From: Sphingorhabdus sp. Alg239-R122
GTDB taxonomy: Bacteria > Pseudomonadota > Alphaproteobacteria > Sphingomonadales > Sphingomonadaceae
Direction of reading: 5' to 3'
Assembly: GCF_900537065.1 (NCBI RefSeq)
Contig: NZ_UNRC01000003.1
Coordinates: forward strand, 186,001-250,000
Length of the DNA: 64,000 bases
The notes below the pieces were generated by a model that had not been told where the DNA came from, did no database searches, and saw only the letters and a program-made list of their open reading frames with translations. Shown here one piece after another: positions 21,025 to 47,557 of the stretch (positions are counted from its first letter, which is position 1; each line of letters opens with the position of its first letter). Both the position numbers and the translations under genes were made by a program.

Positions 21025-21191
21025 TGGAATATAATTTTTACGCGTCCTATCCAAAAGGTTCGGAAATCAGAAAGGGCCGTGTGCGCCGTGCAACTACTGC
21101 GCTGGGCCTTTTGACGCTCCCGTTGCGCGGCTTGATGGAGATTGCGCGGAGTGGTGCTGCATCCCGCTCTGATAAGGATGACGCGCAATGA
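21021..21191 (+). CDS. Small 56-residue protein nested between murE and murF
   Basis: An open frame of 57 codons begins at ATG 21021, overlapping the murE stop as ATGA, and ends with TGA at 21189-21191, overlapping the murF ATG 21188 as ATGA. It exactly bridges the gap between the two genes with the same 4-base overlaps used throughout the cluster, which argues strongly that it is translated. The protein starts MMEYNFYASYPKGSEIRKGR, is basic in its first half, has a short hydrophobic, amphipathic stretch (ALGLLTLPLRGLMEIA) and ends in a charged tail. No family is recognised. It may tune coupling between murE and murF, or bind the membrane or a Mur ligase (guess). Confidence 0.75.
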   Translation: MMEYNFYASYPKGSEIRKGRVRRATTALGLLTLPLRGLMEIARSGAASRSDKDDAQ

Positions 21192-22585: not shown

Positions 22586-22598
22586 GATTGGGAAAGAT

Positions 22599-27497: not shown

Positions 27498-28900
27498 AGG
27501 CGGTAGGCACCGATATTGGCACAATCCATTTTGTGGGCATTGGCGGCATAGGCATGTCAGGCATTGCCGAAGTCATGCACAATCTTGGCTATGATGTGCA
27601 GGGCAGCGATATAGCCGAAAGCTATGTGGTCGAGGGTTTACGCGATCGCGGCATCAAGGTGATGATCGGGCAAAGGTCCGAAAATGTCGAAGGCGCGGCG
27701 GTGATTGTCACATCCACCGCGATCAAGCGTACCAACCCGGAAGTCGTCTATGCGTTGGAAAACCGCATCCCTGTCGTGAAGCGGGCGGAAATGCTTGCCG
27801 AGCTGATGCGGCTGAAATCTACCATTGCCATCGCGGGCACGCATGGCAAGACGACAACGACGTCAATGGTGGCGGCGATGCTTGACCATGGCGGGATTGA
27901 TCCGACGGTTATCAATGGCGGTATCATCAATACTTATGGTTCCAATGCGCGGCTGGGCGATGGCGACTGGATGGTGGTTGAAGCTGATGAAAGCGACGGC
28001 AGTTTCCTGCGGCTTGATGGCACGCTCGCCGTCGTCACCAATATCGATCCTGAACATATGGAGCATTATGGCAGCTTTGATGTCCTCAAAAAGGCGTTTA
28101 TCGAATTTGTCGAGAACGTACCTTTTTATGGTGCAGCCATATTGTGCCTCGATCATCCCGAAGTACAGGCGATTTTGCCGCAAGTGAAAGACCGCCGGAT
28201 TATCACTTATGGTTTTAGTGCGCAGGCAGATGTGCGCGGTGAAAACGTGACACCAATTCCGGGCGGCAACCGGTTTGATGTGACCGTGAGTGAAACAGAT
28301 GGTACCAGCCGCAAGATTGAAGGCATCGAATTACCGATGCCAGGGCGGCATAATGTACAAAATGCATTGGCCGCCGTCACGATCGGCCTGCAAATGGGCA
28401 TGTCCGACGAAGATGTGCAGAACGGCTTTGCCACTTTTGGCGGCGTCAAGCGCCGTTTTACCAAAGTGGGTGAGGTGGATGGCGCAGTCATTATTGATGA
28501 TTATGGCCATCACCCGGTCGAGATTAAAGCCGTTCTGGCCGCGGCGCGTGAGGGCGCCCAAAACCGCATTATCGCTGTGGTTCAACCGCACCGCTATACC
28601 CGCCTGCGTGATTTGATGGATGAGTTCCAGCAGTGTTTTAACGATGCTGATATTGTCTATGTAACGCCAGTCTATGAAGCGGGCGAAGATCCGATTGAAG
28701 GTGTTGATGCCGAAGCTCTGGTTGCGGGCCTGAAACAGCGTGGGCTGCGTTCGGCGGCAACCATAGCCGATGCTGATGCATTGGCCAAAGAGCTTGCCGA
28801 TACGGTGCAGGCAGGTGATATGGTCGTGTGCCTGGGCGCGGGGGATATCACGAAATGGGCGGCAGGCCTTGCCGATGCGATCAAGGCGAAGCGCGGATGA
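27494..28900 (+). CDS. murC: UDP-MurNAc:L-alanine ligase
   Basis: This 468-residue Mur ligase starts the peptide stem with L-Ala. It has the N-terminal Rossmann motif [16 protein letters not shown] (near 10-25), the ATP loop [12 protein letters not shown] (near 114-125), [10 protein letters not shown] and the C-terminal [10 protein letters not shown]. All hallmarks of MurC over the related Mpl are present. It overlaps murG and murB by four bases. Confidence 0.95.
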
Positions 28901-29805
28901 GTGTTGATACCGCCTTTATGCCCGATGTGCGCGGCAAGTTAAAGCCGGAAGCCCCGCTTGCACCGCTTGTCTGGTTCAAAAGCGGCGGCCGGGCGGACTG
29001 GCTGTTTGAACCGAAAGACGTGGCTGATTTACAGGATTTTCTTGCCAATCTGGATAATGATATTGAGGCGTGGCCGCTGGGGCTTGGTTCCAACCTGATT
29101 ATTCGCGATGGCGGCAAGCGCGGCGTGACGGTCCGGCTCGGCAAAGCTTTTGCTGCTATTGATACGAGCTACGCGGATGAGCTTGTACTGACTAGCGGCG
29201 CAGGAGCCCCGGGTATTTCGGTGGCAAGCAAGGCGCGTGACAATGGCATTGCGGGCCTTGAATTCCTGCGGGGTATACCTGGCACGGTGGGCGGCGCGGT
29301 GCGCATGAACGCGGGCGCTTATGGCCGTGAAGTCTGCGACATACTGGTGAGTGCCGATCTGGTGCTGCGCGATGGCAGTCTGGCCACGGTGCAGTTGGAA
29401 GATATGGGCTATAGCTACCGCCATAGCGAACTTCCCAAGGGCGCGATTGTGGCGGGGGCAACGTTCAAAGGGATTGCTGGCGACCCCAAAGAAATCGGCG
29501 CGGAGATGGACCGCATCGCCGCCGAACGCGAAGCATCGCAGCCGCTGCGCTCGCGCACGGGCGGATCGACATTCAAAAACCCTGAGGGACACAAGGCATG
29601 GCAGCTGGTTGACGCGGCCGGGTGCCGCGGCCTGCGGATTGGCGATGCGCAGGTATCGGAAAAACACTGTAACTTCCTGCTCAATCTGGGCGAAGCGACA
29701 TCGGCGGATATTGAGGCGTTGGGTGAGGAAGTGCGCAAACGCGTCAAAGCCCACTCGGGCGTTGAACTGCAATGGGAAATCCAGCGTGTGGGGGAAAAGC
29801 CATGA
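28897..29805 (+). CDS. murB: UDP-N-acetylenolpyruvoylglucosamine reductase
   Basis: This 302-residue FAD enzyme reduces UDP-GlcNAc-enolpyruvate to UDP-MurNAc using NADPH. The FAD-binding [14 protein letters not shown] segment (near 64-77), the [17 protein letters not shown] loop with its catalytic neighbourhood, and the late GSTFKNP with the active Ser and the terminal Glu region are all present; it is a type II (short) MurB. The start is ATG 28897 in the murC stop. It overlaps ddl by four bases. Confidence 0.95.
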
Positions 29806-30734
29806 CCCTTTCCAAACTGCATATCGCAGTGCTGATGGGGGGGTGGTCCGCCGAACGTGAAGTGTCGCTTATGAGCGGGAATGGTGTGGCCGATGCACTG
29901 GAATCGCGCGGACATAAAGTGACGCGGGTCGATATGGACCGCAACCTGGCCATGGTGCTGGATGGCATAAAACCCGATGCGGTGTTCAATGCGCTGCACG
30001 GTACGCCGGGTGAAGATGGCACGGTGCAGGGCATGCTCGACCTGATGCAGATCCCCTATACGCATAGCGGGCTGGTGACATCAGTGATTGCGATTGACAA
30101 GGAGCTTACCAAGCAGGCGCTGGTGCCGCAAGGTATCCCCATGCCCGAAGGCAAGGTTGTGGAGTGCGCGACGCTGTACAAGGGCGATCCACTGCCACGG
30201 CCTTATGTACTTAAGCCCGTAAATGAAGGGTCTTCTGTCGGCATTGCGATAGTCCGTGATGACAGCAATTACGGTTCTCCTATTGCGCGTGACAGCAAGG
30301 GACCATGGCAGGATTTTGACCATTTGCTGGCCGAGCCTTTCATTAAGGGCCGTGAGCTTACGACCGCTGTTATTGGCGACAAGGCATTGTGCGTGACGGA
30401 GCTGCAGGTCAAATCGGGCTTCTATGATTATGATGCCAAATATACGGATGGACTGACCGAGCATATCTGCCCGGCGGATATTCCCGAAGATATAGCGGAG
30501 CTGTGCCGCGAATATGCACTGAAGGCCCACCGGTTACTTGGGTGCAAAGGTACTTCAAGGTCCGATTTTCGGTGGGATGATGAACTGGGATCAGACGGTC
30601 TGTTCCTTCTGGAAACCAACACGCAGCCCGGCATGACACCCTATAGCCTTGTGCCTGAACAGGCGAAGCATATGGGTATGAGCTATGCCGATCTGGTAGA
30701 GGCAATTGTGGAGGAGGCGCTCGCGAAAGCGTGA
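29802..30734 (+). CDS. ddl: D-alanine--D-alanine ligase
   Basis: This 310-residue ATP-grasp enzyme makes the D-Ala-D-Ala dipeptide used by MurF. It shows VLMGGWSAEREVSLMSG (near 8-24), the ALHGTPGEDGT loop, the ATP-binding KPVNEGSSVG and the terminal LETNTQPGMTP metal/catalytic segment. Start ATG 29802 sits in the murB stop. The end overlaps ftsQ by a GTGA. A run of seven G at 29837-29843 encodes the Gly-Gly of MGGW. Confidence 0.95.
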   Translation: MTLSKLHIAVLMGGWSAEREVSLMSGNGVADALESRGHKVTRVDMDRNLAMVLDGIKPDAVFNALHGTPGEDGTVQGMLDLMQIPYTHSGLVTSVIAIDKELTKQALVPQGIPMPEGKVVECATLYKGDPLPRPYVLKPVNEGSSVGIAIVRDDSNYGSPIARDSKGPWQDFDHLLAEPFIKGRELTTAVIGDKALCVTELQVKSGFYDYDAKYTDGLTEHICPADIPEDIAELCREYALKAHRLLGCKGTSRSDFRWDDELGSDGLFLLETNTQPGMTPYSLVPEQAKHMGMSYADLVEAIVEEALAKA

Positions 30735-31663
30735 CGCAAAAGCATATGGCCAAGGCGAAGACCACCCGTAAGAAAGTCGCACCGCGTAAACGTGCAGCGC
30801 CCAGGAAAAAGGTCCGGAAGGCTTCACCGCTGGACAAGCTGCTGCAGATGCTGCCTTTCACAGAAAGCCAGATACAGCGCGGCGCGACCTGGGGTGTTTT
30901 GCTGCTGATTGCTGTTGTCGGTTATGGTGTGGCAGAATTTTTTGGCGCGCCAGCAGCTGCACGTCAGGAATTTGCAGAAGCCGCAGGCCGTGCAGGGTTT
31001 GAAGTCAAACGTATCGAAGTACGCGGCGTGGACCGTGTCAACGAGCTTAAAGTCTATGAAATCGTGTTGAATGAAAAAGATCGGGCCATGCCGCTGGTTG
31101 ATGTGGAAAAGCTGCGCAGTGATCTGATGGAATTTGGCTGGATCAAGGATGCACGCGTGTCACGCCAGCTTCCCGACACACTGATTGTCGATATTGTCGA
31201 GCGTGTGCCGCATGCAGCATGGGATAATGGCCAGTCATTGACGTTAATCGACAAGGGCGGGGCGGTGTTGGGCGAAGTAAGTGCGGCGCAAGCGCGCGAA
31301 TTTCCGCTTATCGCCGGTTACCGCGCAAATGAGCGAGCAGAGGACCTGTCCGCGCTGCTTGAAGAAGCACCCGCGCTTATTCCACTGGTTACAAAGGCCG
31401 AATGGATTGGCAATCGCCGCTGGAATATCAGTTTCAAATCAGGCGAAACGCTGGCCTTGCCAGAGGGCAGGGCGGAAGCCGCCGCCGCATGGATTAATTT
31501 TGCACGGATGGATGGAATAAACCGGCTTTTGGGCAAGGGTGTGACGTATTTCGACCTGCGCGATCCGGAGCGCGCTTACCTGCGGATGCCGCGCAAGGAA
31601 AAAGAAGATGATAAGGCGCCGGAAAAACGTTCAGGCCGGTCGCAAACGACGCAAGAGGGGTAA
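30731..31663 (+). CDS. ftsQ: Cell division protein FtsQ
   Basis: This 310-residue bitopic protein links early and late divisome proteins. A long cytoplasmic N-terminus rich in Lys and Arg precedes one membrane helix (near residues 54-72). The POTRA domain follows (FEVKRIEVRGVDRVNELKVY, near 92-111), then the beta domain with DLRDPERAYLRM at the end. Start is GTG 30731, which overlaps the ddl stop; ATG 30746 is an alternative. Six bases separate it from ftsA. Confidence 0.93.
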   Translation: MTQKHMAKAKTTRKKVAPRKRAAPRKKVRKASPLDKLLQMLPFTESQIQRGATWGVLLLIAVVGYGVAEFFGAPAAARQEFAEAAGRAGFEVKRIEVRGVDRVNELKVYEIVLNEKDRAMPLVDVEKLRSDLMEFGWIKDARVSRQLPDTLIVDIVERVPHAAWDNGQSLTLIDKGGAVLGEVSAAQAREFPLIAGYRANERAEDLSALLEEAPALIPLVTKAEWIGNRRWNISFKSGETLALPEGRAEAAAAWINFARMDGINRLLGKGVTYFDLRDPERAYLRMPRKEKEDDKAPEKRSGRSQTTQEG

Positions 31664-31669
31664 GGGCAA

Positions 31670-32935
31670 ATGGCAACGCAGCGCGTTGAAAAGATTTTTA
31701 CGGCACTGGATATTGGATCATCCAAAGTGTCCGCGATGATCGCGGGGCAGACAGATAGCGGTGAACTGGTTGTGCTGGGCACCGGGCAGCGCGCGAGTGA
31801 AGGTGTGAAGCGCGGTTATATTGCCGATATGGAACGCACCGAGCTGGCTGTGCGCACGGCTGTGGAGCAGGCGGAACGAATTGCTGGCGTGAATATTGAG
31901 GACGTCTGGGTGGGCTGCTCCTCCGGCGGCCTGTCAAGCAGCGTGGCCAGTGTTGAGATTGACCTGGGCGGCGGACGCGTTGAAAAAGACGATATCAACC
32001 AGCTGCTTGATGCCGGGCGTGAAACAATTGACCCTGCCGGTCGCACGGTGCTGCATGCACAGCCTACGCTTTATACGCTGGATGGCCTGTCAGGTGTGAA
32101 AAATCCTGAAGGCTTGCATGCCGATCAACTTGGAGTTGATATCCATGTGATACTTGCTGATGGCGCGCCGCTGCGTAACATGGACACATGTGTTCGCGCC
32201 GCGCATCTGAACGTGGAGTCGATTGTCGCATCGCCAATTGCGGCAGGTATGGCTAGCCTAAGTACAGAAGAACGTGAGCTTGGCGTCGCGCTGGTCGAAA
32301 TGGGTGCCGGTATCACCAATATTTCGCTCTATGCGGGTGATATGCTGGTCGGGCTTTTCGCCATTCCTTATGGAGGCAACGATATTACGGATGCGATTGC
32401 ATCGGCATTTGGTATTCGCCGCAATCAGGCTGAACGGATGAAGTGTTTTTATGGTTCGGCTACATCCAGCCGTACCGACCACCGTGACATGATACCCGTT
32501 GGCGGCCCCAATGAACCGGTGGCGGCCGGCGACGATCAGAACCGCATCGCCCGTGCAGAGCTTATTTCAGTTATCAAGCAACAGCTGGATTATCTCATAG
32601 GCGAAATTGGCAAAGGCCTTAAAGAGCTGGGCTTTACCGGAAATGGCGGCCGGCAGATCGTGTTGACAGGCGGCGGTGCGGAAATGAAAGGCATTGCCGA
32701 TTACGTCCAGGCGGCACTTGACCGATCTGTGCGTGTGGGTAGGCCGCGCGGGCTTGGCGGATTGCCTGAAGCGCATGGCGGTCCTGCTTTCACAACCCTG
32801 GCCGGGTTGGTGCAGTTCGCGGTTCATGCGCCGGTTGATATCCGCACGATACCAAAGGGATATCAATCCGTTCATAAAATGGCTGGCGGTGCGCTTTTTC
32901 AGCGTGTGTTGAATGCGATTAAGGCCTATTTTTGA
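31670..32935 (+). CDS. ftsA: Cell division protein FtsA
   Basis: This 421-residue actin-like ATPase anchors FtsZ to the membrane. It opens with FTALDIGSSKVSAMIAG (phosphate-1 motif, near 10-26), carries SHS2-type 1C domain sequences and the LTGGGAEMKGI adenosine motif. The C-terminal amphipathic membrane-targeting helix is visible as ALFQRVLNAIKAYF (near 408-421). It ends the run of tightly packed genes; 147 bases with regulatory features separate it from ftsZ. Confidence 0.95.
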   Translation: MATQRVEKIFTALDIGSSKVSAMIAGQTDSGELVVLGTGQRASEGVKRGYIADMERTELAVRTAVEQAERIAGVNIEDVWVGCSSGGLSSSVASVEIDLGGGRVEKDDINQLLDAGRETIDPAGRTVLHAQPTLYTLDGLSGVKNPEGLHADQLGVDIHVILADGAPLRNMDTCVRAAHLNVESIVASPIAAGMASLSTEERELGVALVEMGAGITNISLYAGDMLVGLFAIPYGGNDITDAIASAFGIRRNQAERMKCFYGSATSSRTDHRDMIPVGGPNEPVAAGDDQNRIARAELISVIKQQLDYLIGEIGKGLKELGFTGNGGRQIVLTGGGAEMKGIADYVQAALDRSVRVGRPRGLGGLPEAHGGPAFTTLAGLVQFAVHAPVDIRTIPKGYQSVHKMAGGALFQRVLNAIKAYF

Positions 32936-32996
32936 ACGGTTCGCCGATGAACTGGGGAAAAAAGCCGGTTTTTGTAAAAAAGGTTAATTTTTTAGG

Positions 32997-33011
32997 TGAT
33001 TCGGTGAATCA
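32997..33011. promoter_or_regulatory. Palindrome with two GANTC sites before ftsZ
   Basis: TGATTC-GGT-GAATCA is a perfect 6-3-6 palindrome that contains GATTC (32998-33002) and GAATC (33006-33010). GANTC is the target of the cell-cycle methylase CcrM in Alphaproteobacteria, and in Caulobacter methylation of such sites with GcrA controls ftsZ. The location, 72 bases before the ftsZ ATG, fits such control (inference). Confidence 0.5.
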
Positions 33012-33082
33012 TTCTGTGCCAATAAGGGACTGTAAAAAATTTGCTTCGTATGAATAGCTGAAGCAGGGGAGACAAAGAGCAC

Positions 33083-34687
33083 ATGAGTATCAATATCGGA
33101 CCACCCACAGTTGATGAATTGCGCCCGCGCATTGCCGTAATCGGCGTTGGCGGGGCGGGTGGTAATGCCATCGCCAACATGATCGCCGCCAGCGTTGAAG
33201 GCGTTGATTTTATCGTTGCCAATACCGACGCACAGGCACTGAACAGTTCACCTGCCGAAAGGCGGATCCAGCTTGGCCCTGAAATAACACAGGGGTTAGG
33301 CGCAGGATCGCGGCCGGAAGTTGGCCGTGCAGCTGCAGAAGAGACCATTGTTGATGTGGATGCCGCGCTGGAAGGTGCGCATATGTGCTTTATCGCTGCT
33401 GGCATGGGCGGTGGCACTGGCACTGGCGCAGCGCCTGTGATTGCCAAGGCGGCACGCGAAAAAGGCATATTGACTGTCGGTGTTGTGACCAAGCCGTTTA
33501 CGTTTGAAGGCACACGCCGTGCACGTTCGGCAGATGCAGGCATTGATGAGCTGCAAAAAAATGTCGATACTTTGATCGTCATTCCAAACCAGAACCTGTT
33601 CCTGGTTGCCAACCCGAACACCACGTTCAAGGAAGCATTCCACCTTGCGGACGAAGTATTGCAGCAGGGGGTACGTTCGATCACCGATCTGATGGTGATG
33701 CCAGGCCTTATCAACCTTGATTTTGCCGATGTCCGTTCGGTTATGCGTGAAATGGGCAAGGCGATGATGGGTACAGGTGAAGCCGAAGGCGACAACCGCG
33801 CGCTTGAAGCAGCCGAAAAAGCCATTGCCAACCCATTGCTTGACGGTGTGTCGATGCAGGGCGCCAAAGGTGTGATCATCTCGATTACGGGTGGTGAGGA
33901 CATGCGCCTGATGGAAGTCGACGAAGCTGCCAACCATATCCGTGAACTGGTCGATGCCGATGCAAACATCATTTGGGGTAGTGCCTTTAATGATGATCTG
34001 GAAGGTAAAATTCGTGTGTCTGTTGTGGCGACCGGCATTGATAATGATGGCAGTGTGCAGGCTGAACCTGCGCGCGCATTTTCACTTAACAGCATGTCCG
34101 GTACAAAAACCGAAGAGAAACCGGAGCCGGTAATTGCACCTGCTCCCGAACCGGAAATGGTGGAATTGAATGCCCCGGAGACGTCTCTTGATGACATGCC
34201 CGCTGATGAGACGGTATCGAGTGATTATGAGCCTGTAAGTCTGGACGAGCCCGAAGTGGTTGCGGAAGAAGCCGAAACTGCTGCACCAGGTATGGAGTCA
34301 CTGGACAATGCAGGTGAGGAAGAACCGCTTGATCTTACATTTCCGGCGGATGATGCGGAAGATGAAGGTGTTGTAACAGAAGCTGCAAACGAAGTTGAAG
34401 CTGAAGCAGAGACTGAAAAACCTGCCATTGCGACATATGTTGATGATGCATTGGAAGAAAGCAGCGCAAACGATAGCGATGACCTCCTGCTTGACGCATC
34501 CCAGTCGGTTGAAGAGCCCCGCGCTCCGCGCATAAATACGGGCAACTCTGGCGGAGGCACTCTGTTTGAAAGAATGGCCAATCTGTCACGCGGTGGCAGC
34601 AAGACAGCGGAAAAGGATGAGGAAGACAGCGATGACGACAATCCGCTCAATATCCCGCGCTTCCTTAACCGGCAAAACAACCAGTAA
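33083..34687 (+). CDS. ftsZ: Cell division GTPase FtsZ
   Basis: This 534-residue tubulin homologue forms the division ring. The GTPase core holds GVGGAGGNA (21-29), the G-box GMGGGTGTG (107-115), and the T7 loop [11 protein letters not shown] with the catalytic Asp residues. The core ends near residue 325. A roughly 190-residue, strongly acidic linker (Glu/Pro/Asp-rich) follows, then the C-terminal peptide [10 protein letters not shown] that binds FtsA and other partners. Such long linkers are known from Alphaproteobacteria. The ribosome site GGGGAGA lies before ATG 33083, and a strong terminator follows. Confidence 0.97.
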
Positions 34688-36697: not shown

Positions 36698-37666
36698 CTA
36701 TTCGATTCCGAGAGCCGCTGCAGCTTCCTTTATCTGTTTCAACTCAGCACCATTGTTTCGAAAGGTACGTTGCGCATCTGTATAGGCTTTTTGTGCCTTG
36801 GCTGTTTCACCCAGCGCAACCCGGCTGCGCATCAGCATGATCCAGCCGCGTGCGTCATTGGGATTTTTCGAAAGACGCGTATCAAGGCCTTCCACCATGT
36901 CGCGGATCATTTTTTCCTGTTGTCCCTGCGGTAATTGCGCGGCATCGCGCATTTGCTGCTGTGTTGGTCCCGGAATAGCGCCCGTTGCCACATCCGGGCC
37001 GGTGGTTTTGAAAGGCGGCGGGGGCGGCGCATTGCTGGTTCCCGCAAGGCGTTTTTCGACCTCAATACCACGTTCTTTGCCGACATTGCGGATGACGCGG
37101 CGAATATCCTCAGCATAGGGTGCATCAGCCGGTGTATCAGCGAGCAGCGCAAACCAGTCGTCTATTGCTTCTGTATGCTTGCCATCAATATCCTTCGCGG
37201 CAGCAACAAAATACCGGGCACGGGCATCTTCCGGATCAAGTTCCAGCGCGCGGGCAAAGGCGGCGCGAGCATCAGGCGCGATATTGGGGTTATTGCCGCC
37301 TAGAACCAGTGCTTCGCCTAACATGGAAAAATATTCAGCATTTTCAGGGTCAAGTGTGGTGGCCCGCTTCATTGCAGTGGCTGCCTCGGCAAACCGCTCG
37401 GTTTCGAAATAGGACCAGCCCAGCATACGCCAGCCTTCGGCATTATCCGGCTCTTCCTGTAATTTCTTTTCAAGGTTTGCAATGACTGTATCCACGTCAG
37501 GGGCTTCTGCCGCAGGAGCGTTTGCGGTAGCATCAGAAGGTGTAATATCATCGCTACGGGTAAGGGCGATTGCTATTGCCACCGCTGCCACAAGGGCAGC
37601 AATAATCAATATTATCAGGCCCAAAGATGGTCTTTTTATACCTGATGCACCTTCTTCATTCGCCAT
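36698..37666 (-). CDS. CcmI/CycH-like TPR protein for cytochrome c biogenesis
   Basis: This 322-residue protein has one membrane helix near residues 14-34 and a periplasmic TPR region (EGWRMLGWSYFETERFAEAA, near 75-94, and further repeats to 300). The layout and repeat wording resemble CcmI (CycH), which presents apocytochrome c to the heme-ligation machinery; the short form lacks the N-terminal membrane pair of full CcmI. The start is ATG 37666 after AGGAGCAAGAA; the open frame extends to 37786 without support. Lying back to back with a gene cluster that encodes a decaheme cytochrome, a link is attractive. A general TPR adaptor remains possible. Confidence 0.7.
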   Translation of the reverse strand: MANEEGASGIKRPSLGLIILIIAALVAAVAIAIALTRSDDITPSDATANAPAAEAPDVDTVIANLEKKLQEEPDNAEGWRMLGWSYFETERFAEAATAMKRATTLDPENAEYFSMLGEALVLGGNNPNIAPDARAAFARALELDPEDARARYFVAAAKDIDGKHTEAIDDWFALLADTPADAPYAEDIRRVIRNVGKERGIEVEKRLAGTSNAPPPPPFKTTGPDVATGAIPGPTQQQMRDAAQLPQGQQEKMIRDMVEGLDTRLSKNPNDARGWIMLMRSRVALGETAKAQKAYTDAQRTFRNNGAELKQIKEAAAALGIE

Positions 37667-37771
37667 TTCTTGCTCCTGTAAACGGTCATGTTCAAATGAC
37701 CTGTATCCCACTAACATCCCGCAATTTGCGGCGGCTGACAACCGGCTATGTGAGACACTTGTAAAATAATA

Positions 37772-37787
37772 AGTGGCATTGATCACA
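37772..37787 (+). promoter_or_regulatory. CRP-like half-matched site between divergent genes
   Basis: AGTGG-N6-TCACA at 37772-37787 resembles the CRP consensus TGTGA-N6-TCACA, perfect on the right half and weak on the left. It lies about 105 bases before the divergent CcmI-like start and 147 bases before the reductase GTG. In view of the cyclic-nucleotide domains encoded next it deserves notice, but alone it is weak. Confidence 0.25.
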
Positions 37788-37933: not shown

Positions 37934-40468
37934 GTGAGCGAGATATATCGCGTTGCCATAATCGGGTCGGGGCCAGCGGGCATGAGTGCCGCAGGCCGCG
38001 CAGCTGAGCTTGGCATACCGCATATCCTGCTTGAAAAGACCGACCACCTCTCTGATACAATTTATAAATATCAAAAGGGTAAGCATGTGATGGCGACGCC
38101 CAGTCAGCTCATCCTGCGCTCTGACATGGATTTTGATGCTGGCAAGCGTGAAGAAATTCTGGGTGCTTGGGATGAACAGACAGCAGCGCTGAAAGTTAAT
38201 GTGAAATATAGTGCCGAGGTCAAGGCGATCCGGGGCACTGGACCGGCAATCCCCGGCAGCATCCATAAAATCGTGACACGTAAACGCGATGGCAGCACGA
38301 ACGAGCAGGAGATACAGCGGCACGAAGCACCGTATGAGCTGGAACTGACGAACGGTGAAAAAATCATTGCCGAGACCGTTGTGTTTGCGATTGGTACGCA
38401 GGGCAATCCCAATCGTATGCGCTGTCCCGGCGGCGACCTGCCACATGTGCAGTATCAGCTGGATGACCCGACCGAATATATTGACGAGCATATTATCGTG
38501 GTGGGAACGGGCGATGCGGGTATCGAAAATGCGCGCGGGCTGGCCGAAGATTCTGCGCAGCGCAATATTGTATCCATTCTCAATCGCAAGACCGATTTTG
38601 CTACGGCAAAGGACGCCAATGTTAAGGCGCTTCTGGCCGATGGTGAGGCGGGTAGGCTTAACGTTCGCCTGGAAACCGAAACCGCGTCGATTGAGCCGGG
38701 CTGGATTACGCTCAACACCCGAGATGGTGAAGAAAAAATACAGTGCGACCGGGTAATTGCGCGGATTGGCTCTGCCCCGCCGCGTGCCTTTGTCGAACAG
38801 TGCGGCATTGAGTTTGCCAGCGATGACCGTCTCGCCTTTCCGAAGCTCTCGCCTGTGTTTGAATCGACTGCGCCAGGCATTTTTATCATTGGTGCACTGG
38901 CTGGCTATCCATTGATCAAGCACTGCATGAACCAGGGCTATGATGTTATCGAGTTCATCAATGGCAATAGCGAACTGAAACCGGCGGATGAACCGATACT
39001 TGAGGAAAAGTTTGCCAATCTTCCTGGCAAACGGGGCGTGGCAGAATGGCTGGAATTCTTGCGCGAGAACGTGAGCATATTGAACGGCATGAACCCGCTG
39101 CAAATGCGTGAATTCATGCTTGACAGCAACGTCCATTATTATCGCAAGGGCGATGTAATTTTCAAACGCAATGAACCTGGCTCATCACTGTTCGGAATTG
39201 CTGACGGTAGCGTTGCAGTACAGGTTGATCTGACAAACTCCTCTATAACGGTTCCGATTGAACAAGGGTCTATTTTTGGCGAAGTCGGCCTGATTTCCGG
39301 GCGGAAACGCGGGGCGACCATTGTAGCGGCTGAAGACTGTGTCTGTGTCGAAATTTCGCGCACGGCGGCGCTGAAGCTGCAAAGCCAGGTGCCGGCAGCA
39401 AAAGCGGCGATTGAGCGGATTTCGACGGAAAGGCAATTACTTCAGATGTTTGGTTCTGGCCTGACGCCAGATGACATTGCCGAAGTGGTGGACACCAGTG
39501 AAATCAGGCAGGTCAAAGCAGGTGAGGCAATCATCACGGAAGGCGAGGAAGGTAAAGACATTTACGTGATCCGCGTCGGTTCTATGATTGTCGAGAAGGA
39601 AATTGGCGGCAAACCGGTCTTCCTCTCCTATCTTCCTGCCGGTTCCTATGTCGGTGAAATGGCGTTGATCGCGGGCGGGCAGCGCACGGCGACTGTGAAA
39701 GCGGCTATCAAGTCCGAAGTCATCCGTATTGACGGAGAGGCGTTTCAAAAAGTGCTCGACCAGCATCCCGGCCTTATGGAGCGTGCGAAACGGGATATGG
39801 CTTCGCGGCAGGACATCAATGCCTATGTCGAATCCAAAAAGGATAGTTTTTCGGGCGTTGTTGACATGTATTCGGGAGTTGCCAATTTCTTGGTTGAAAA
39901 TGGCATAGGTGAAGCGACCGATGTGCTGCTGATCGACGAAAACCTGTGCGTCGGCTGTGACAACTGTGAGAAAGCATGTGCGGACAGCCATGAAGGACTG
40001 TCCCGGCTCGACCGTGAAGCGGGGCGCAGCTATGCGCACCTGCATGTGCCTACCAGCTGCCGTCACTGTGAACATCCGCACTGCATGGCCGACTGCCCGC
40101 CCAATGCCATTCACCGCGGCCCCGACGGTGAAGTCTTTATTGATGATACCTGTATCGGCTGTGGCAATTGTCAGCGCAACTGCCCCTATGGTGTGATCCG
40201 CATGGACAAGGTGCCGCCCAAAAAACCGGGCTTGCTCAACTGGTTGTTCTTTGGCCTTGGCCCGGGCCCTGGTGAACCGGACAAGGCATGGGTGAAAAAG
40301 AAATCCGATCCTGACGTAGAAAAGCCCAAAAAGGCGATCAAGTGCGACATGTGCGCCGGAATACGCGGTGGTCCGGCCTGTGTACGGGCATGCCCGACCG
40401 GCGCGGCTATCCGCGTGGCACCCGATGAATTCCTGACTGTTGCGCGACTGGAAAGGGAGGATGGCTAA
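37934..40468 (+). CDS. NAD(P)-linked flavin reductase + two cNMP-binding domains + four-cluster ferredoxin fusion
   Basis: This 844-residue cytoplasmic protein joins three modules. Residues 1-320: a two-dinucleotide-binding flavoprotein domain like thioredoxin reductase/YpdA, with GSGPAG (11-16) for FAD and VGTGDAG (190-196) for NAD(P), but no redox CXXC. Residues about 390-640: two cyclic-nucleotide-binding domains whose phosphate-binding cassettes keep the key residues, Glu450 and Arg459 in the first, Glu575 and Arg584 in the second. Residues 672-820: a DmsB/HybA-type ferredoxin with 16 Cys in four CX2CX2-8CX3C sets. I infer that it passes electrons from NAD(P)H through FAD and clusters to the membrane partner under cyclic-nucleotide control. 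Start is GTG 37934 by fit to the Rossmann motif. The stop shares a base with the next ATG. Confidence 0.88.
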   Translation: MSEIYRVAIIGSGPAGMSAAGRAAELGIPHILLEKTDHLSDTIYKYQKGKHVMATPSQLILRSDMDFDAGKREEILGAWDEQTAALKVNVKYSAEVKAIRGTGPAIPGSIHKIVTRKRDGSTNEQEIQRHEAPYELELTNGEKIIAETVVFAIGTQGNPNRMRCPGGDLPHVQYQLDDPTEYIDEHIIVVGTGDAGIENARGLAEDSAQRNIVSILNRKTDFATAKDANVKALLADGEAGRLNVRLETETASIEPGWITLNTRDGEEKIQCDRVIARIGSAPPRAFVEQCGIEFASDDRLAFPKLSPVFESTAPGIFIIGALAGYPLIKHCMNQGYDVIEFINGNSELKPADEPILEEKFANLPGKRGVAEWLEFLRENVSILNGMNPLQMREFMLDSNVHYYRKGDVIFKRNEPGSSLFGIADGSVAVQVDLTNSSITVPIEQGSIFGEVGLISGRKRGATIVAAEDCVCVEISRTAALKLQSQVPAAKAAIERISTERQLLQMFGSGLTPDDIAEVVDTSEIRQVKAGEAIITEGEEGKDIYVIRVGSMIVEKEIGGKPVFLSYLPAGSYVGEMALIAGGQRTATVKAAIKSEVIRIDGEAFQKVLDQHPGLMERAKRDMASRQDINAYVESKKDSFSGVVDMYSGVANFLVENGIGEATDVLLIDENLCVGCDNCEKACADSHEGLSRLDREAGRSYAHLHVPTSCRHCEHPHCMADCPPNAIHRGPDGEVFIDDTCIGCGNCQRNCPYGVIRMDKVPPKKPGLLNWLFFGLGPGPGEPDKAWVKKKSDPDVEKPKKAIKCDMCAGIRGGPACVRACPTGAAIRVAPDEFLTVARLEREDG

Positions 40469-41370
40469 TGGCTAGCTTGTTCGCCAATCTGACTGGCCCG
40501 AAAAAGCGGCAAAAAACCGCAGGCCGTGAGCGTAATAGTGCGCATGACGGTTTCCTGCGCCATGCAGGTTATCGCTGGCTCAAGATATTTGTGCTGATCT
40601 GCCTTGTCTCGATTGCCAGCTATTTCTGGATTGATGTGCAGCCGCGTCATAATGGCGGCAGCTGGTACGGCTATACGCTGGGTACGATCGGCGCGCTGCT
40701 GATCCTGTGGCTCACCATGCTGGGCCTTCGCAAACGTGCGATGACTGCGGGTAGCTGGTCGTTAAAGGCATGGACTTCCGCGCATGTCTATCTGGGGCTT
40801 AGTCTGATCGTTATCGGCACGCTGCACACCGGGTTCCAATTAGGCTGGAATATCCACACGCTTGCTTATGCATTGATGATGATTGTCATCATATCGGGCA
40901 TGTTTGGCATCTATCTTTATGCGACACAGCCACAAAAGCTCAGCAGCAACCGTGAAGAGATGACCGAAACGCAGATGATTGAGGCGCTGCGGTCATTTGA
41001 CCGGCAGCTGCATGATGCCGCGCAGCCGCTGGAACCGGAGCATGCCGCACTGGTGCAGGGTTCGCTTGAACAGGATCCGTTCAGCGGTGGGTTCTTCAAG
41101 CGGATTACCGGTAAATATCCGGGCTGCAAGACGCGCTATGCCATTGCTGAGCTGCGCCGCGCGCGCACCTATGCGCCGCGCACTGATGATAATCCGACCG
41201 AAAAAGTCGAACAGTTGCTGGAGCGCAAGGAAGACACGATGTGGCGGCTGCGCAAACACCTGCAGATCAAAGCGATGCTGCAGGTTTGGCTTTATATCCA
41301 CGTGCCAATGACATTTGCGCTGATCGCGGCGCTGTCAGCGCATATTGTCAGCGTATTTTTCTATTGGTGA
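40468..41370 (+). CDS. Membrane protein, probable b-type cytochrome subunit
   Basis: This 300-residue protein has about five membrane helices, near residues 37-54, 66-86, 103-127, 132-152 and 276-298, with a soluble insert from about 155 to 270. Histidines fall within or at the ends of helices (AHVYLGL, TLHTGF, NIHTLAY, YIHVPM, SAHIVS), the arrangement of membrane cytochromes b that hold two hemes. It begins in the stop of the four-cluster ferredoxin gene (TAATG) and precedes the multiheme cytochrome, so a role as the trans-membrane electron bridge, perhaps with quinone, is the simplest reading (inference). It is not a clear member of the NrfD or ferric reductase families. Confidence 0.75.
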   Translation: MASLFANLTGPKKRQKTAGRERNSAHDGFLRHAGYRWLKIFVLICLVSIASYFWIDVQPRHNGGSWYGYTLGTIGALLILWLTMLGLRKRAMTAGSWSLKAWTSAHVYLGLSLIVIGTLHTGFQLGWNIHTLAYALMMIVIISGMFGIYLYATQPQKLSSNREEMTETQMIEALRSFDRQLHDAAQPLEPEHAALVQGSLEQDPFSGGFFKRITGKYPGCKTRYAIAELRRARTYAPRTDDNPTEKVEQLLERKEDTMWRLRKHLQIKAMLQVWLYIHVPMTFALIAALSAHIVSVFFYW

Positions 41371-41377
41371 GGGGCTT

Positions 41378-41434
41378 ATGAAGAAAATATCATATGACCC
41401 TTTATGGAGCATGAAGCGGGGAAGGGCGGCATGA
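41378..41434 (+). CDS. 18-residue leader peptide candidate
   Basis: ATG 41378, seven bases after the previous stop and behind GAGGGGCTT, opens an 18-codon frame (MKKISYDPLWSMKRGRAA) whose TGA overlaps the ATG 41431 of the FHA-cytochrome gene as ATGA. It may be a coupling leader or a decayed small gene. No homologue is known to me. Confidence 0.5.
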   Translation: MKKISYDPLWSMKRGRAA

Positions 41435-43317
41435 GCTTCATCGTCCGCCAGATTGCGCTCAAGAGCGATGGCAGTGAAATTGTCCGTGCCGAAAACCATG
41501 TGCAGGATGAAATCCTCGTTGGACGCAGTAGCGAAAACCAGATTCATTTGCCTGATCTTGCCGTTAATCCGGTGCATGCTTCCATCACACGCGATGATGA
41601 TGGCAAAGTACAGGTTCAATCTGTTTCTGATCTGAAATTTGAACTGAATGGCCGCAGTGTCTCCAAAGGTACAATTGACCCGGCACGCGGTGGGGAGCTG
41701 CGTTTTGGCGGGCATGTGATCGCGGTGGGGAAAGATGCGGAAACAAGCGGTATTGTCTGTACCGTGCGCCGCGTCGAGGCATTGTCTGACAGCGCGGAAG
41801 AAAAGGACCAGGCGAAAATATATTCACTGACCGGCAAGCTGCCCAGCAAGCGGCTGAGCGCATGGGGGTTTGTGATACTGGTGCTTGCGGCCTGTCTGGC
41901 CTGGCCGATTTACACATGGGCGACATATCGCGGGGTCGAGGAACGCCCGGACAAATTCCATGCTGACACCATGTGGTCGAGCGGCAAGTTGAGCCTGGCG
42001 CACCAAAGCCTGAAGGATGACTGTCAGGCATGTCATGTCGATGCGTTCGTGTCGGTGCGCGACAATGCCTGCCTGACTTGCCATACAGAAGATGCGCATG
42101 AACATGCGCCCACTGATCGCCAGCTTGTGAGCCGTGGTGAGCTGAAAGGCTTTGCCAAATTCCGCCGCAACGTGGCCATCACATTCAATAAACCACCCGG
42201 CAGGTGTGTGGAATGTCACACCGAGCATGAGGGTGCAGGTGCTATGCAACCCACTGCGCAGCAATTTTGCGCTGAATGCCATGACGGGATGGATACGCGT
42301 TTGACAGATACAAAGCTTCTCAATGCCGCAGACTTCGGGGATTCCCATCCCCAATTCCGTCCTGCGGTGATGACAAAGCCAGGTGGAGATAATCCGCCGA
42401 CTCGCCGTATTTCACTCGATGATAATCCTACCGAGGATAATGGCCTGAAATTCCCGCATAACCTGCATCTGTCAAAAACCGGTGGTGTTGCGCAGATGGG
42501 ACGGCGGCTTGCGGGCAAATATGGCTTTGGCGCATCACTTGAATGCAAGGATTGCCATACGCCCGACAATGACAATGTGCGTTTCCAGCCAGTGGATATG
42601 GAGAAGAATTGTTCAATGTGCCACAGCCTTGCTTTTGATGAGATTGGCGGCACATTCCGGCAACTTCCACATGGCAAGCCTGATCTGGTGCGCGCGGACC
42701 TGCGCGCCTATTTCCGCTCCACCCGGCCCAACCGGCCCATCAACCTGGGTAGCCGCGGGAATAGCAATAATCCGCGCAGAAGACCCGGAGACGTGAATGC
42801 CGCGCGTACGGCGTCCGACTATGCACGTGCTGTCCGTTTCCGTCCAACACGGGCGGCACAGGCCATCCGTGCGGTATTTTCGCGCGGGGGTGCCTGTTAT
42901 GACTGTCACGGAGTGACGCAGCCAACATCGCGCAGCGGGCTCAATTATGGCATCATGCCGGTCAGTCAGACAGATCGCTATATGCACAAGGGCTGGTTCA
43001 GCCATAAGGCGCATAATGACGAAAGCTGTGAAAGCTGTCATGTGGCCGCGACATCGGGCAAGGCAAGCGACCTGTTGTTGCCCGGCATTTCCACCTGCCG
43101 CGAATGCCATGGTGGTGAAGCTTCCAGCAGCGACGTGCCATCAAGCTGCGCCATGTGCCATGACTATCACGCCGATGAAGGCGCACCATGGCTGATCCGC
43201 AATCAGAACAAGCCGAAAACAATCAGTGCACCAGATAAAAAGGCCGCACCGCGCGGCCAGACCGAAAAAGTGGCGCGCAGACAGGGGGGGGTGCGAAATG
43301 ATCGTTCGGGAGGCTGA
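41431..43317 (+). CDS. FHA domain fused to decaheme cytochrome c
   Basis: This 628-residue protein has an N-terminal FHA domain (near 1-105) with ILVGRSSENQIHLPD and the conserved NPVHASI, the elements that bind phosphothreonine. One membrane helix (near 143-163) follows. The periplasmic part carries ten CXXCH motifs at Cys198, 214, 259, 280, 372, 394, 489, 533, 556 and 573, with spare His residues (FPHNLH, FSHKAH) as sixth ligands, in cytochrome c3/NapC-like style. I start it at ATG 41431 after GGGGAAGG; an in-frame ATG at 41404 adds nine residues. Topology predicts FHA in the cytoplasm and hemes in the periplasm. A run of eight G (43284-43291) lies near the 3' end, before the short Arg-rich tail. 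Confidence 0.88.
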   Translation: MSFIVRQIALKSDGSEIVRAENHVQDEILVGRSSENQIHLPDLAVNPVHASITRDDDGKVQVQSVSDLKFELNGRSVSKGTIDPARGGELRFGGHVIAVGKDAETSGIVCTVRRVEALSDSAEEKDQAKIYSLTGKLPSKRLSAWGFVILVLAACLAWPIYTWATYRGVEERPDKFHADTMWSSGKLSLAHQSLKDDCQACHVDAFVSVRDNACLTCHTEDAHEHAPTDRQLVSRGELKGFAKFRRNVAITFNKPPGRCVECHTEHEGAGAMQPTAQQFCAECHDGMDTRLTDTKLLNAADFGDSHPQFRPAVMTKPGGDNPPTRRISLDDNPTEDNGLKFPHNLHLSKTGGVAQMGRRLAGKYGFGASLECKDCHTPDNDNVRFQPVDMEKNCSMCHSLAFDEIGGTFRQLPHGKPDLVRADLRAYFRSTRPNRPINLGSRGNSNNPRRRPGDVNAARTASDYARAVRFRPTRAAQAIRAVFSRGGACYDCHGVTQPTSRSGLNYGIMPVSQTDRYMHKGWFSHKAHNDESCESCHVAATSGKASDLLLPGISTCRECHGGEASSSDVPSSCAMCHDYHADEGAPWLIRNQNKPKTISAPDKKAAPRGQTEKVARRQGGVRNDRSGG

Positions 43318-43322
43318 TATTC

Positions 43323-43346
43323 ATGAAATATGGCATGAAATATGGC
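43323..43346. repeat. 12-bp tandem duplication before the phosphodiesterase gene
   Basis: ATGAAATATGGC occurs twice in a row (43323-43334 and 43335-43346), just past the stop at 43317. It creates ATG codons out of frame with the phosphodiesterase, so the true start lies further on. Confidence 0.7.
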
Positions 43347-43359
43347 GCGAGACGATGCC

Positions 43360-44208
43360 ATGTTAATCGCGCAGATAACTGATATCCATCTGGGCTTTGA
43401 CCCCGATAACCCACGCGAGTTTAACCGCCAACGGCTCGACCGGACACTCGCTGAACTGGTCAGTCTTGATCCGCAGCCGAATCTTCTTTTTGCCACGGGC
43501 GACCTGATCGATCGCGGTGATGAGCAAAGCTATCACCGTCTGCAGGAGGCTTTTTTAGTATTACCCTTTCCAGTGCACATGTGTCTGGGCAATCATGATA
43601 TGCGGTTTAATTTCCGCAAGGTGTTTGGCGACGAGGGCTTTCATGATGATTATCTGCAATATGAAATTGTCGCCGATGGGCTGCGCTTCCTGGTGCTTGA
43701 TACCCTGGAGGAAGGCCGCCATGGCGGCGCTTTTTGTCAGGCACGGGCCAACTGGTTGAATGCGCGGTTGTCCGAAAAGGCAAATATACCGACCATCATT
43801 GTACAGCATCACCCGCCGGTTGAGGTGGGCATAGCCTGGATGAATACACATCCTTGTGAGCCGTGGGTGGCACGGCTTTCTGAATGCCTGCAAGGCCGCG
43901 ATAATGTGATTGCCATGCTATGCGGCCATGTTCATCGGCCGATCATGAGTAAATGGGAAGGGATGGCACTGTCCGTATGTCCTTCCACTGCACCGCAGGT
44001 GGCGCTGAATCTGAAACCGATTGATCCAGAGGCACCGGATAACCGCGACATGATAGTCGCCGCGCCGCCCGCCTATGCGCTGCATTGGTGGAATGGGCGT
44101 GAGCTTATCAGTCATTTCAATACAGCCGAAGAGCATGAAATGCTGGCCCGTTATGATGCGAAAATGCAACCTCTGGTGCGCAGCCTGATCGCCGAGCGGC
44201 CCAAATAG
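43360..44208 (+). CDS. CpdA-like class III cyclic-nucleotide phosphodiesterase
   Basis: This 282-residue calcineurin-type metallophosphoesterase shows all the metal motifs: TDIHLG (7-12), ATGDLIDRG, LGNHDM, the QHHPP His and CGHVHR. Together with the size and the MLIAQITDIH opening this fits the CpdA family that hydrolyses cAMP. The ATG 43360 puts the family opening at residue 1; ATG 43342 is in frame and gives six more residues. It follows the FHA-cytochrome gene by 42 bases on the same strand, so it is likely cotranscribed with genes that contain cyclic-nucleotide-binding domains, giving a matching off-switch (inference). Confidence 0.85.
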   Translation: MLIAQITDIHLGFDPDNPREFNRQRLDRTLAELVSLDPQPNLLFATGDLIDRGDEQSYHRLQEAFLVLPFPVHMCLGNHDMRFNFRKVFGDEGFHDDYLQYEIVADGLRFLVLDTLEEGRHGGAFCQARANWLNARLSEKANIPTIIVQHHPPVEVGIAWMNTHPCEPWVARLSECLQGRDNVIAMLCGHVHRPIMSKWEGMALSVCPSTAPQVALNLKPIDPEAPDNRDMIVAAPPAYALHWWNGRELISHFNTAEEHEMLARYDAKMQPLVRSLIAERPK

Positions 44209-46607: not shown

Positions 46608-46657
46608 GCGTGCCAACACCGCATAGTTGCAATCAGCAACTGAAAAGGAGAGCCCCT

Positions 46658-47557
46658 ATGAAAGCATTGCGTACACCCGAGGAACGGTTTGCCGGTATTC
46701 CCGATTTTGATTTTCCGGTAAAATATGTCGATGACCTTCCCGACTATCAGGACCTGCGCATTGCTTATGTGGATGCCGGACCAGAAGACGCAGAACACAC
46801 ATTTCTGTGCCTGCATGGGGAACCGTCATGGTCGTTTCTTTACCGCAAGATGATACCAGTTTTTCTGGAAGACGGCGCGCGGGTCATAGCGCCAGATCTG
46901 CTTGGCTTTGGCCGCTCTGACAAACCGGCACTACAATCAGACTATTCCTTTCATTTTCACCGTAACTATCTGTTAAAAATTGTGAAAAGATTGGATCTTA
47001 AGAATATTACTCTGGTGGTACAAGATTGGGGCGGGCTCCTTGGCCTGACGCTGCCGGTAGACAATGATTTTGCAGGCCGGCTGTCGCGCCTCATAGTGAT
47101 GAACACGGGGTTGGGCATTGGCAAAGCGCCCGGTGAGGGCTTTATGGCATGGAAAAATTATGCACTCTCAACACCTGATCTGCCGATCGGTTCCCTGATC
47201 GCCCGCGGCACGCCACATCTGCGTGAGGCTGAAATCGCGGCTTATGATGCACCGTTCCCTTCGCCCGAATATAAGGCAGGCGCGCAGGTGTTCCCTGCAT
47301 TGGTCCCTGTATCACCTGAGATGGAAGGTGTGGATGTCAGCCTGGCTGCGGCGCGTTTCTGGTCAGAGAAGTGGAGCGGCAAAAGCTTTATGGCCGTGGG
47401 TGTGCTCGATCCGGTACTTGGCCCGGACACAATGAAGAGTTTGCAAAGAATGATAAAAGGATGTCCTGACCCGATGATGATCGAGGATGGAGGGCATTTT
47501 GTGCAGGAATGGGGCGACCCTATAGCCCGGGTTGCGCTAAAAAGCTTTGCAGCATAA
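46658..47557 (+). CDS. Haloalkane dehalogenase, subfamily I
   Basis: This 299-residue alpha/beta hydrolase should split carbon-halogen bonds in haloalkanes, yielding an alcohol and halide. All residues that define the DhlA-like subfamily I are in place: HGEPSW (53-58) for the oxyanion hole, Asp123 as nucleophile and Trp124 in VVQDWGG, Trp165 as second halide-binding residue, Asp251 in GVLDPVLG and His280 in GGHFVQEW. ATG 46658 follows AAAAGGAGAG. The gene stands alone, not on a visible plasmid or mobile element, so it may be a housekeeping or detoxifying form. The substrate range cannot be read from sequence; epoxide hydrolase is excluded by the Trp pair. Confidence 0.9.
   Translation: MKALRTPEERFAGIPDFDFPVKYVDDLPDYQDLRIAYVDAGPEDAEHTFLCLHGEPSWSFLYRKMIPVFLEDGARVIAPDLLGFGRSDKPALQSDYSFHFHRNYLLKIVKRLDLKNITLVVQDWGGLLGLTLPVDNDFAGRLSRLIVMNTGLGIGKAPGEGFMAWKNYALSTPDLPIGSLIARGTPHLREAEIAAYDAPFPSPEYKAGAQVFPALVPVSPEMEGVDVSLAAARFWSEKWSGKSFMAVGVLDPVLGPDTMKSLQRMIKGCPDPMMIEDGGHFVQEWGDPIARVALKSFAA

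Follow-up and report, generated by a model that had tools for sequence, protein, structure and literature searches.

The data suggest that the genome of Sphingorhabdus sp. Alg239-R122 encodes a trans-envelope electron conduit whose inner half lies in the window analysed here, a stretch of 64,000 nucleotides (positions 186001-250000 of contig C3; genome 2.5 Mb, 99.96% complete). Within the window a flavin reductase with cyclic-nucleotide-binding domains (cNBDs) and a ferredoxin (gene A), a five-helix membrane protein (gene B) and a cytochrome with a forkhead-associated (FHA) domain and ten heme sites (gene C) lie in a row and are followed by a phosphodiesterase gene (D). Outside the window, genes F1, F2, F3 and E form an apparent operon. 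We propose that A-B-C, as the inner half, and F1-F2-F3-E, as the outer half, would make up one conduit of the porin-cytochrome type that is fed by NAD(P)H and carries electrons outwards, and we put the probability of this at about 0.55. It is favoured because E tracks A, because both halves are found in single arrays in two genomes (G403 and G411), because the putative cofactor ligands are conserved and because A and B are naturally fused in some carriers. Gene content, gene order, co-occurrence and conserved ligand residues form the basis of the proposal, and from them we infer cofactor binding, complex formation, the direction of flow, the effect of a nucleotide, the acceptor and the barrel nature of F3.

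Conservation of the inner half was followed in 40 genomes (the own genome and relatives), in 80 named loci (the best 80 of 532 relatives, with titles that all point to Sphingomonadales or Alphaproteobacteria) and in 398 genomes of the phylum. Full-length A is present in 12 of the 40 genomes, the own genome included, and in all 12 the order is A-B-C-D with a divergent CcmI-like gene upstream. All four genes are present in 72 of the 80 named loci; in the other eight the stored DNA stops inside the array. Because the order recurs in 12/12 relatives and 72/80 named loci, the arrangement is far beyond chance. In the phylum sample C was found in 15 genomes spread over seven families. B is present in the same 15 (one further weak match was not counted), as is near-full-length A; four more genomes match A (E-value <= 1e-40) over the reductase domain only and were not counted either. 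The seven carriers outside the family of the window have A, B and C contiguous or nearly so, and in two of them A and B are a single protein (1123 and 1118 residues). An earlier reading of the window from its letters alone (the sequence-only reading) had proposed co-occurrence of this three-gene set as a check, and the set does travel together. Taken together, A-B-C very probably represents one inner-membrane electron module. The same reading had counted four genes in the system. A-B-C stands as the conserved unit, but D was dropped as a core part, a D homologue having been found in one of the seven stretches around distant A-B-C arrays, some 4.7 kb away from C. Not all of these stretches reach far past C.

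The outer half is located on contig C2 of the own genome (178375-187950). F1 (178375-179835) is a cytochrome with four hemes that has a c554-type relative in G411, and F2 (179838-181814) is lipoprotein-like, with homologues in G403 and G411 that match HbpS-like proteins. F3 (181818-183758; 647 residues) is a possible outer-membrane barrel, and E (183742-187950), the last gene, encodes about 1,400 residues with ten CXXCH motifs and LVIVD propeller repeats. Among the 40 genomes, every one of the 12 with full-length A also has E, and the remaining 28 have no E. In the phylum sample it occurs in 11 of the 15 A-B-C genomes and in 0 of the 383 others. Three of the 80 named loci are shorter than 8 kb and were left out; in 23 of the remaining 77, E lies within the stored flanks near the array, usually convergent beyond D. 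Cultured strains that have the E operon at the side of the array include Sphingobium fuliginis DSM 18781 (L087) and Erythrobacter cryptus DSM 12079 (L057). In two distant families everything is in one gene array on one strand: G403 has A-B-C-F2-F3-E-F1 and G411 has A-B-C-F1-GluDH-F2-F3-E. In G192 the contig runs from A-B-C through F2 and F3 and then stops. These data suggest that A-B-C probably joins F1-E in one conduit.

Several observations weigh against this. In the own genome the A-B-C and F1-E halves are on different contigs. E was not found in four of the 15 A-B-C genomes (G192, G191, G073 and G040); the G192 contig ends right after F3, which qualifies its missing E, and the other three assemblies are 76% (G191) and 98% (G073 and G040) complete, the G040 contig ending about 0.7 kb after C. 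No F1, F2 or F3 was found in the stretches around the arrays of G191, G073 and G040. The two C sequences with nine CXXCH motifs come from G191 and G073, which are also the genomes with fused A-B. A structure model of B reached a predicted local distance difference test (pLDDT) score of 68, its best Foldseek E-value being 0.33 with no useful fold match. The model of F3 failed to give a fold (pLDDT 31), and profile searches of F3 and E against solved structures gave nothing useful and no solved relative of F3. The last residue of F3 is aromatic in 25/25 orthologues, but so it is in 84/86 sequences of B, which is no barrel. Amphipathicity z scores of three F3 orthologues (0.7, 2.2 and 1.6) overlap with those of five non-barrel controls (-0.8 to 0.8); a barrel of a PCC3-like cluster (see below) scored 3.2 and a protein judged by eye to be TonB-receptor-like scored 4.2, both above F3. 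Additionally, the F3 relatives match no Pfam family (best Alginate_exp, E-value 0.068, in 1/18). F3 is thus treated here as a putative outer-membrane barrel.

The genomes without E bear on a second explanation, in which A-B-C alone supplies reductant to the periplasm, for a peroxidase, a methionine sulfoxide/thiol system or cytochrome c maturation, and the E operon merely travels with it. Three of the 15 A-B-C genomes (G073, G040 and G191) lack E without a contig end beside the array to account for it; the G040 contig does stop about 0.7 kb past C. A gene for a CcmI/CycH-like TPR protein of cytochrome c biogenesis (36698-37786, minus strand; PF23914, E-value 6.7e-26) is divergent from A in the window, and its counterpart lies upstream of A in 79/80 named loci, as a role in maturation would have it. 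Such co-travelling is hard to reconcile with the exact tracking of A by E in the 40 relatives and with the shared arrays of G403 and G411, and we consider this explanation improbable; a single conduit is the preferred reading of the two operons.

The four genes of the window are all on the plus strand: A at 37934-40468 (844 residues), B at 40468-41370 (300 residues), C at 41404-43317 (637 residues) and D at 43342-44208 (288 residues). The open reading frame list and the Pfam and NCBIfam scans confirm the domains given to them by the sequence-only reading, and the one-base overlap that it saw between A and B is present, A ending and B beginning at 40468. The start of C is probably at residue 10 (41431) and not at 41404, because 74/80 sequences have Met at that column. 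A conserved Met7 suggests that D starts at 43360, and with this start the 42-base gap reported between C and D holds. An 18-codon frame (41378-41434, plus strand), which had been taken to join B to C, is present, with its TGA overlapping the ATG at 41431. Among the 74 of 80 C loci that were compared, a counterpart of 18-19 codons was found in two genus-mates only; elsewhere there is a frame of 0, 5, 6 or 25 codons, or none. We therefore place this lineage-specific frame outside the system and have dropped it as a gene; it is probably a coupling leader or due to chance.

Protein A combines a flavin module, two cNBDs and an iron-sulphur module, with Pfam matches to Pyr_redox_2/3, two stretches of cNMP_binding and Fer4_11/Fer4_7. 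The reductase domain (37946-38986) is YpdA-like: it matches TIGR04018 with an E-value of 1.6e-31 and aligns to the solved structures 7a76 and 7a7b, and its score against this family of YpdA bacillithiol disulfide reductases (109.3 bits) does not reach the equivalog cut-off of 339.9. Conservation of residues was read from complete proteins only (90 rows for A, 86 for B and 80 for C, the window included and some rows being close relatives; incomplete proteins were dropped). The FAD glycine motif and Arg218 are invariant in the 90 rows and the second Rossmann glycine motif is kept in 87-90 of them. Arg218 aligns with the Arg of solved YpdA-type reductases, which we take to use NADPH. The cNBDs sit between the flavin and iron-sulphur modules. 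The first, a cNMP_binding stretch at 39137-39418 (limits approximate, by eye), has F448-G-E450 and R459 in 90/90 rows, and the second, at 39506-39766 (best PF00027 stretch at residues 525-611, E-value 1.1e-35 for the whole protein), has G574-E575 and R584 in 90/90. The ferredoxin domain (39926-40438) contains 16 Cys, invariant in 90/90 rows, for which four [4Fe-4S] clusters are predicted. A also matches the iron-sulphur family PF13247 (44 bits, cut-off 26.2). In G040 there is a second full-length A (contig C17, 8485-10959; L163) that is 42% identical to the A of the window; no B or C lies in the 19.5 kb stretch around it, and the A-B-C array of this genome is on contig C96.

Hydropathy analysis of B shows five hydrophobic segments, and the protein has 11 His. 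Four of these, His106, His120, His278 and His292, are invariant in 86/86 rows. Every row has two WX3HX13H motifs, and 76/86 have an SGXXG motif. Because of the two WX3HX13H motifs B should hold two b hemes, the predicted ligands being His106/His278 for the inner heme and His120/His292 for the outer one. The fraction of basic residues is 0.22 before helix 1 and 0.38 between helices 2 and 3, in comparison with 0.05 and 0.00 in the loops of the opposite side. By the positive-inside rule this concentration on one side predicts that B is oriented N-in, C-out, and the natural A-B fusions likewise place its N-terminus inside. B has no match to PF01794 (FRD) at an E-value of 0.1 or below, and its sole Pfam match is PF01292 with 19.4 bits against a cut-off of 30.1. 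A profile search of B against solved structures gave nothing useful. The best VIA Z score of the B model, 9.8, was to unrelated helical proteins; helical bundles reach as much by chance and the score excludes no family.

Protein C consists of an FHA domain (41515-41667; PF00498, E-value 3.7e-5), a single membrane helix (41854-41910; hydropathy peak at residues 151-169) and ten CXXCH heme sites (42022-43161; motif scan). The count is ten in 78/80 rows and nine in two. Beyond the helix exactly ten His outside the CXXCH motifs are kept in 79-80 of the 80 rows, and three more in 23 to 52; the ten are likely distal ligands, enough for ten bis-His hemes. In FHA domains that read phospho-threonine, GR and SxxH contact the phosphate. 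The FHA domain of C has GR in 80/80 rows and His58 in 78/80 but Ser/Thr at position 55 (H-3) in 6/80, and is thus degenerate at the phosphate-contacting Ser. There is also no match to the Hanks-type kinase family PF00069 in the own genome at an E-value of 0.001 or below, in a search that was positive in 11 of 14 control genomes, eight of them over the cut-off. A phospho-threonine switch was set aside as the leading view for these two reasons, and we regard such reading by C as quite unlikely. The same two results suggest that the domain more likely serves as a docking module, perhaps for A.

The phosphate-binding cassette of cyclic-nucleotide-binding domains carries a Glu and Arg motif. Its conservation in both cNBDs suggests that A probably binds a cyclic nucleotide. 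D is an SpdA/CpdA-like class III cyclic-nucleotide phosphodiesterase (Metallophos). Its best named relatives in NCBIfam are SpdA (E-value 2.6e-35) and CpdA (5.4e-25), with scores below the equivalog cut-offs (122.4 of 400 bits and 88.4 of 225 bits, respectively), and its metal residues (DxH, GD, GNH, H and GHxH) are invariant in 12/12 sequences. A CHASE2 class III nucleotide cyclase, the only PF00211 match in the own genome, is encoded about 20 kb from the F1-E operon (L173, G000:C2, 6402-8456) and may supply the nucleotide for A. Control of the pathway by a cyclic nucleotide is plausible because the cassette Glu and Arg are kept in 90/90 rows in both cNBDs, a phosphodiesterase lies in the operon and a class III cyclase is in the genome. 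The sequence-only reading had signals entering at both ends of the pathway; the cyclic-nucleotide end thus keeps its plausibility, but the phospho-input through the FHA domain is poorly supported.

The order of cofactors in that reading, NAD(P)H, FAD, 4Fe-4S, heme b and heme c in a trans-membrane pathway, agrees with the co-inheritance of the genes and with the conserved ligands. We suggest the following mechanism. Electrons from NAD(P)H would enter the FAD of A and pass along its four [4Fe-4S] clusters, then cross the inner membrane by two b hemes stacked in B, held by His106/His278 on the cytoplasmic and by His120/His292 on the periplasmic side. The ten bis-His c hemes of C, a protein anchored by its helix, would take them on to the tetraheme F1, from which they would reach the probable barrel F3 and the decaheme-propeller E and finally an external acceptor. 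At the cytoplasmic end of C, its FHA domain would more likely dock, perhaps to A. Because the cNBDs lie between the flavin and iron-sulphur modules of A, cAMP or cGMP bound there may set the coupling between the two, and D, from the same operon, may lower the nucleotide level locally. The likely role would be that of an outlet that can be switched to discharge reductant to an external acceptor, for which iron, manganese and a quinone-like compound are candidates.

Outward flow from NAD(P)H would be downhill in redox terms as well as along the membrane potential and would conserve no energy, as in NADPH oxidases. This gives a reason for gating, and it suits an outlet under control better than a main respiratory chain. 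From this general bioenergetic argument the balance tips slightly towards outward flow. The same conduit could also run inwards, with Fe(II), Mn(II) or an electrode donating through E, F1, C and B to give reduced flavin or NAD(P)H at A, or reduced quinone from B. Reduction of NAD(P)+ from such donors would be uphill and against the membrane potential, and most of the named carriers belong to genera known as heterotrophic. The case for inward flow comes from related clusters. For PCC3 and PCC4, proposed from gene content by He et al. (2017; PMC5566968), the main text draws electrons as passing from a donor outside the cell into the quinone pool, and it names an Erythrobacter that oxidises Mn(II) as one of the PCC3 carriers. 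A ten-heme cytochrome cluster named 'Forkhead-associated protein' is listed for 27 of the 87 iron-oxidising Gallionellaceae in Table 1 of PMC10734462. Transcript data for PCC3, as given in the texts of the two studies, point both ways: in Sideroxydans CL21 one PCC3 inner-membrane gene is up with iron oxidation (PMC12442390), whereas in Sideroxydans ES-1 both PCC3 clusters are lower on Fe(II) (PMC8788666). Against inward flow, an NAD(P)-type flavoprotein recurs near PCC3-like inner-membrane proteins (see below), a hint that the inner partner is NAD(P)H and not quinone. We judge inward flow to be unlikely and retain an outward route from NAD(P)H.

In addition to the array, the window contains an ordinary division and cell-wall cluster (17903-34687; PBP transpeptidase, FtsW, FtsA and FtsZ by Pfam) and a gene for a haloalkane-dehalogenase-like alpha/beta hydrolase (46610-47557; 339.4 bits, NCBIfam subfamily cut-off 265), which lies downstream of the array in two genus-mates as well. 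Twelve records of large Sphingobium plasmids (0.9-1.3 Mb) carry A as well, and one of these is typed as conjugative. This conjugative-typed record, pMSHV of Sphingobium herbicidovorans (L138), has A-B-C-D together with an E gene, so the unit of A-B-C-D and E may move between strains.

Among known systems the closest in description is PCC4, with which the comparison was made by description, from the main text of PMC5566968. The inner-membrane protein of PCC3 and PCC4 has five helices, the fourth with SGXXG and the third and fifth with WX3HX13H, and B matches it motif by motif. In PCC4 Subgroup II a pfam13247 iron-sulphur gene is upstream of the inner-membrane protein gene, and one species annotates both as one gene; here A, with its PF13247 match, lies directly before B, and the A-B fusions parallel that annotation. 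The PCC4 cytochromes are described there as periplasmic, with 4, 5 and 10 hemes, and no extracellular one is described. The present system shares the ten-heme and four-heme cytochromes, and a porin in the array too if F3 is a barrel: F3 is in the array in G403, G411 and G192 and on another contig in the own genome, and the evidence for a barrel is weak. In contrast with PCC4, the heme set here is 10 (C), 4 (F1) and 10 (E), with no five-heme gene in the stretches examined. The main text of PMC5566968 mentions no NAD(P)H flavoprotein-iron-sulphur fusion, cNBD or FHA domain, and the terms 'cyclic nucleotide' and 'FHA' do not occur in it.

The B profile also matches the inner-membrane protein of a PCC4-like locus in G096. 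This locus (L139, 3844-12262) encodes a flavin/2Fe-2S reductase, a c554 protein, a cNBD-cNBD-4Fe-4S protein, the inner-membrane protein and a ten-heme protein in which no FHA domain was detected. Because its cNBD-cNBD-4Fe-4S protein is without a YpdA-like domain, the joining of cNBDs to ferredoxin may predate the fusion to the reductase.

The likeness to PCC3 lies in the inner membrane and in the flavoprotein. The B profile matches the inner-membrane proteins of PCC3-like loci with E-values of 1.4e-19 to 3.1e-9, and a flavoprotein homologous to that of A is in or near five PCC3-like loci (E-values 2.5e-53 to 1.6e-57). This is a ferredoxin-FAD-NAD(P) protein of 430-459 residues. It lies in or beside the clusters of G399, G081, G032 and G038; in G185 about 4.4 kb separate it from the cluster. 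The G081 stretch has a barrel-like gene and an 11-heme gene and no inner-membrane protein was seen in it. In a sixth genome with this protein, G401, there is no multiheme gene within 18 kb. An NAD(P)H-type flavoprotein thus turns up repeatedly beside these clusters, whereas the 2017 models have quinone in this role, and the description of PCC3 in the main text of PMC5566968 leaves such a reductase unmentioned. Unlike those of the present system, PCC3 cytochromes have 10 to dozens of hemes, often in repeats, and no FHA or cNBD protein was noticed in the PCC3-like loci. The PCC3-like clusters (L169 in G185, L170 in G399, L171 in G081, L020/L162 in G038 and L021/L161 in G032) encode 24-heme, or 21- and 33-heme, cytochromes. 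Four of the five have a barrel-like protein of 718-830 residues, and weak TPR matches were found in the three of these that were scanned.

The likeness of C to the Gallionellaceae cytochromes, cluster 403 in PMC10734462, is by name and by ten CXXCH sites; the cluster is filed there under 'Other' and, in the text of that paper, is given no operon, partner or function. NADPH oxidases and the FRD family (PF01794) resemble the system in two HX13H pairs on helices 3 and 5 (H106/H120 and H278/H292 in B) and in a path from NAD(P)H through FAD to two b hemes across the membrane. They differ in that B has no PF01794 match, the flavin family is another one, four predicted iron-sulphur clusters lie between and the acceptor would be a decaheme protein. 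MtrCAB and MtoAB share the idea of a decaheme and porin conduit, but there electrons enter from quinol/CymA and not from an NAD(P)H flavoprotein. Neither C (E-value <= 0.1) nor E (E-value <= 0.001) matches the DmsE/MtrA family TIGR03508, and membership in MtrCAB/Mto was rejected on this basis. A Methylobacter conduit was likewise rejected as the same system, 'FHA' and 'cyclic nucleotide' being absent from the main text of its description (PMC13322032). A fusion in Accumulibacter was looked for and not found. Among the open-licence main texts searched, supplements aside, no reductase-cNBD-ferredoxin fusion, no operon with an FHA-decaheme protein, no set of FHA, cNBD and multiheme proteins, no E and no LVIVD-multiheme cytochrome combination was found, the one trace being the ten-heme cluster in Table 1 of PMC10734462.

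If the proposal is true, common heterotrophic genera (Sphingobium, Novosphingobium, Erythrobacter and Blastomonas among the named loci) would have an electron outlet set by cAMP or cGMP; we know of no outer-membrane electron export in these genera. The ten-heme forkhead-associated cytochromes would gain a likely operon and partners. Tentatively, and with the odds somewhat against it, the system would be the first bacterial conduit that takes electrons straight from NAD(P)H out to the outer membrane with allosteric gating by a cyclic nucleotide, an outlet similar to NADPH oxidases but lengthened by 24 c hemes (10 in C, 4 in F1 and 10 in E), and it would answer what the inner partner of PCC3 and PCC4 is, namely NAD(P)H flavoproteins and not quinone. 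The sequence-only reading had called the pathway possibly undescribed. Its general frame was proposed in 2017 as PCC4/PCC3 (PMC5566968, main text), and what is new against the literature searched is the fusion, the FHA-decaheme operon and E. In summary, the system looks like a regulated version of a kind of gene cluster that was put forward in 2017 by comparing genomes, in which the inner partner overlaps or is fused to the membrane protein, unlike the quinone drawn for PCC3 and PCC4.

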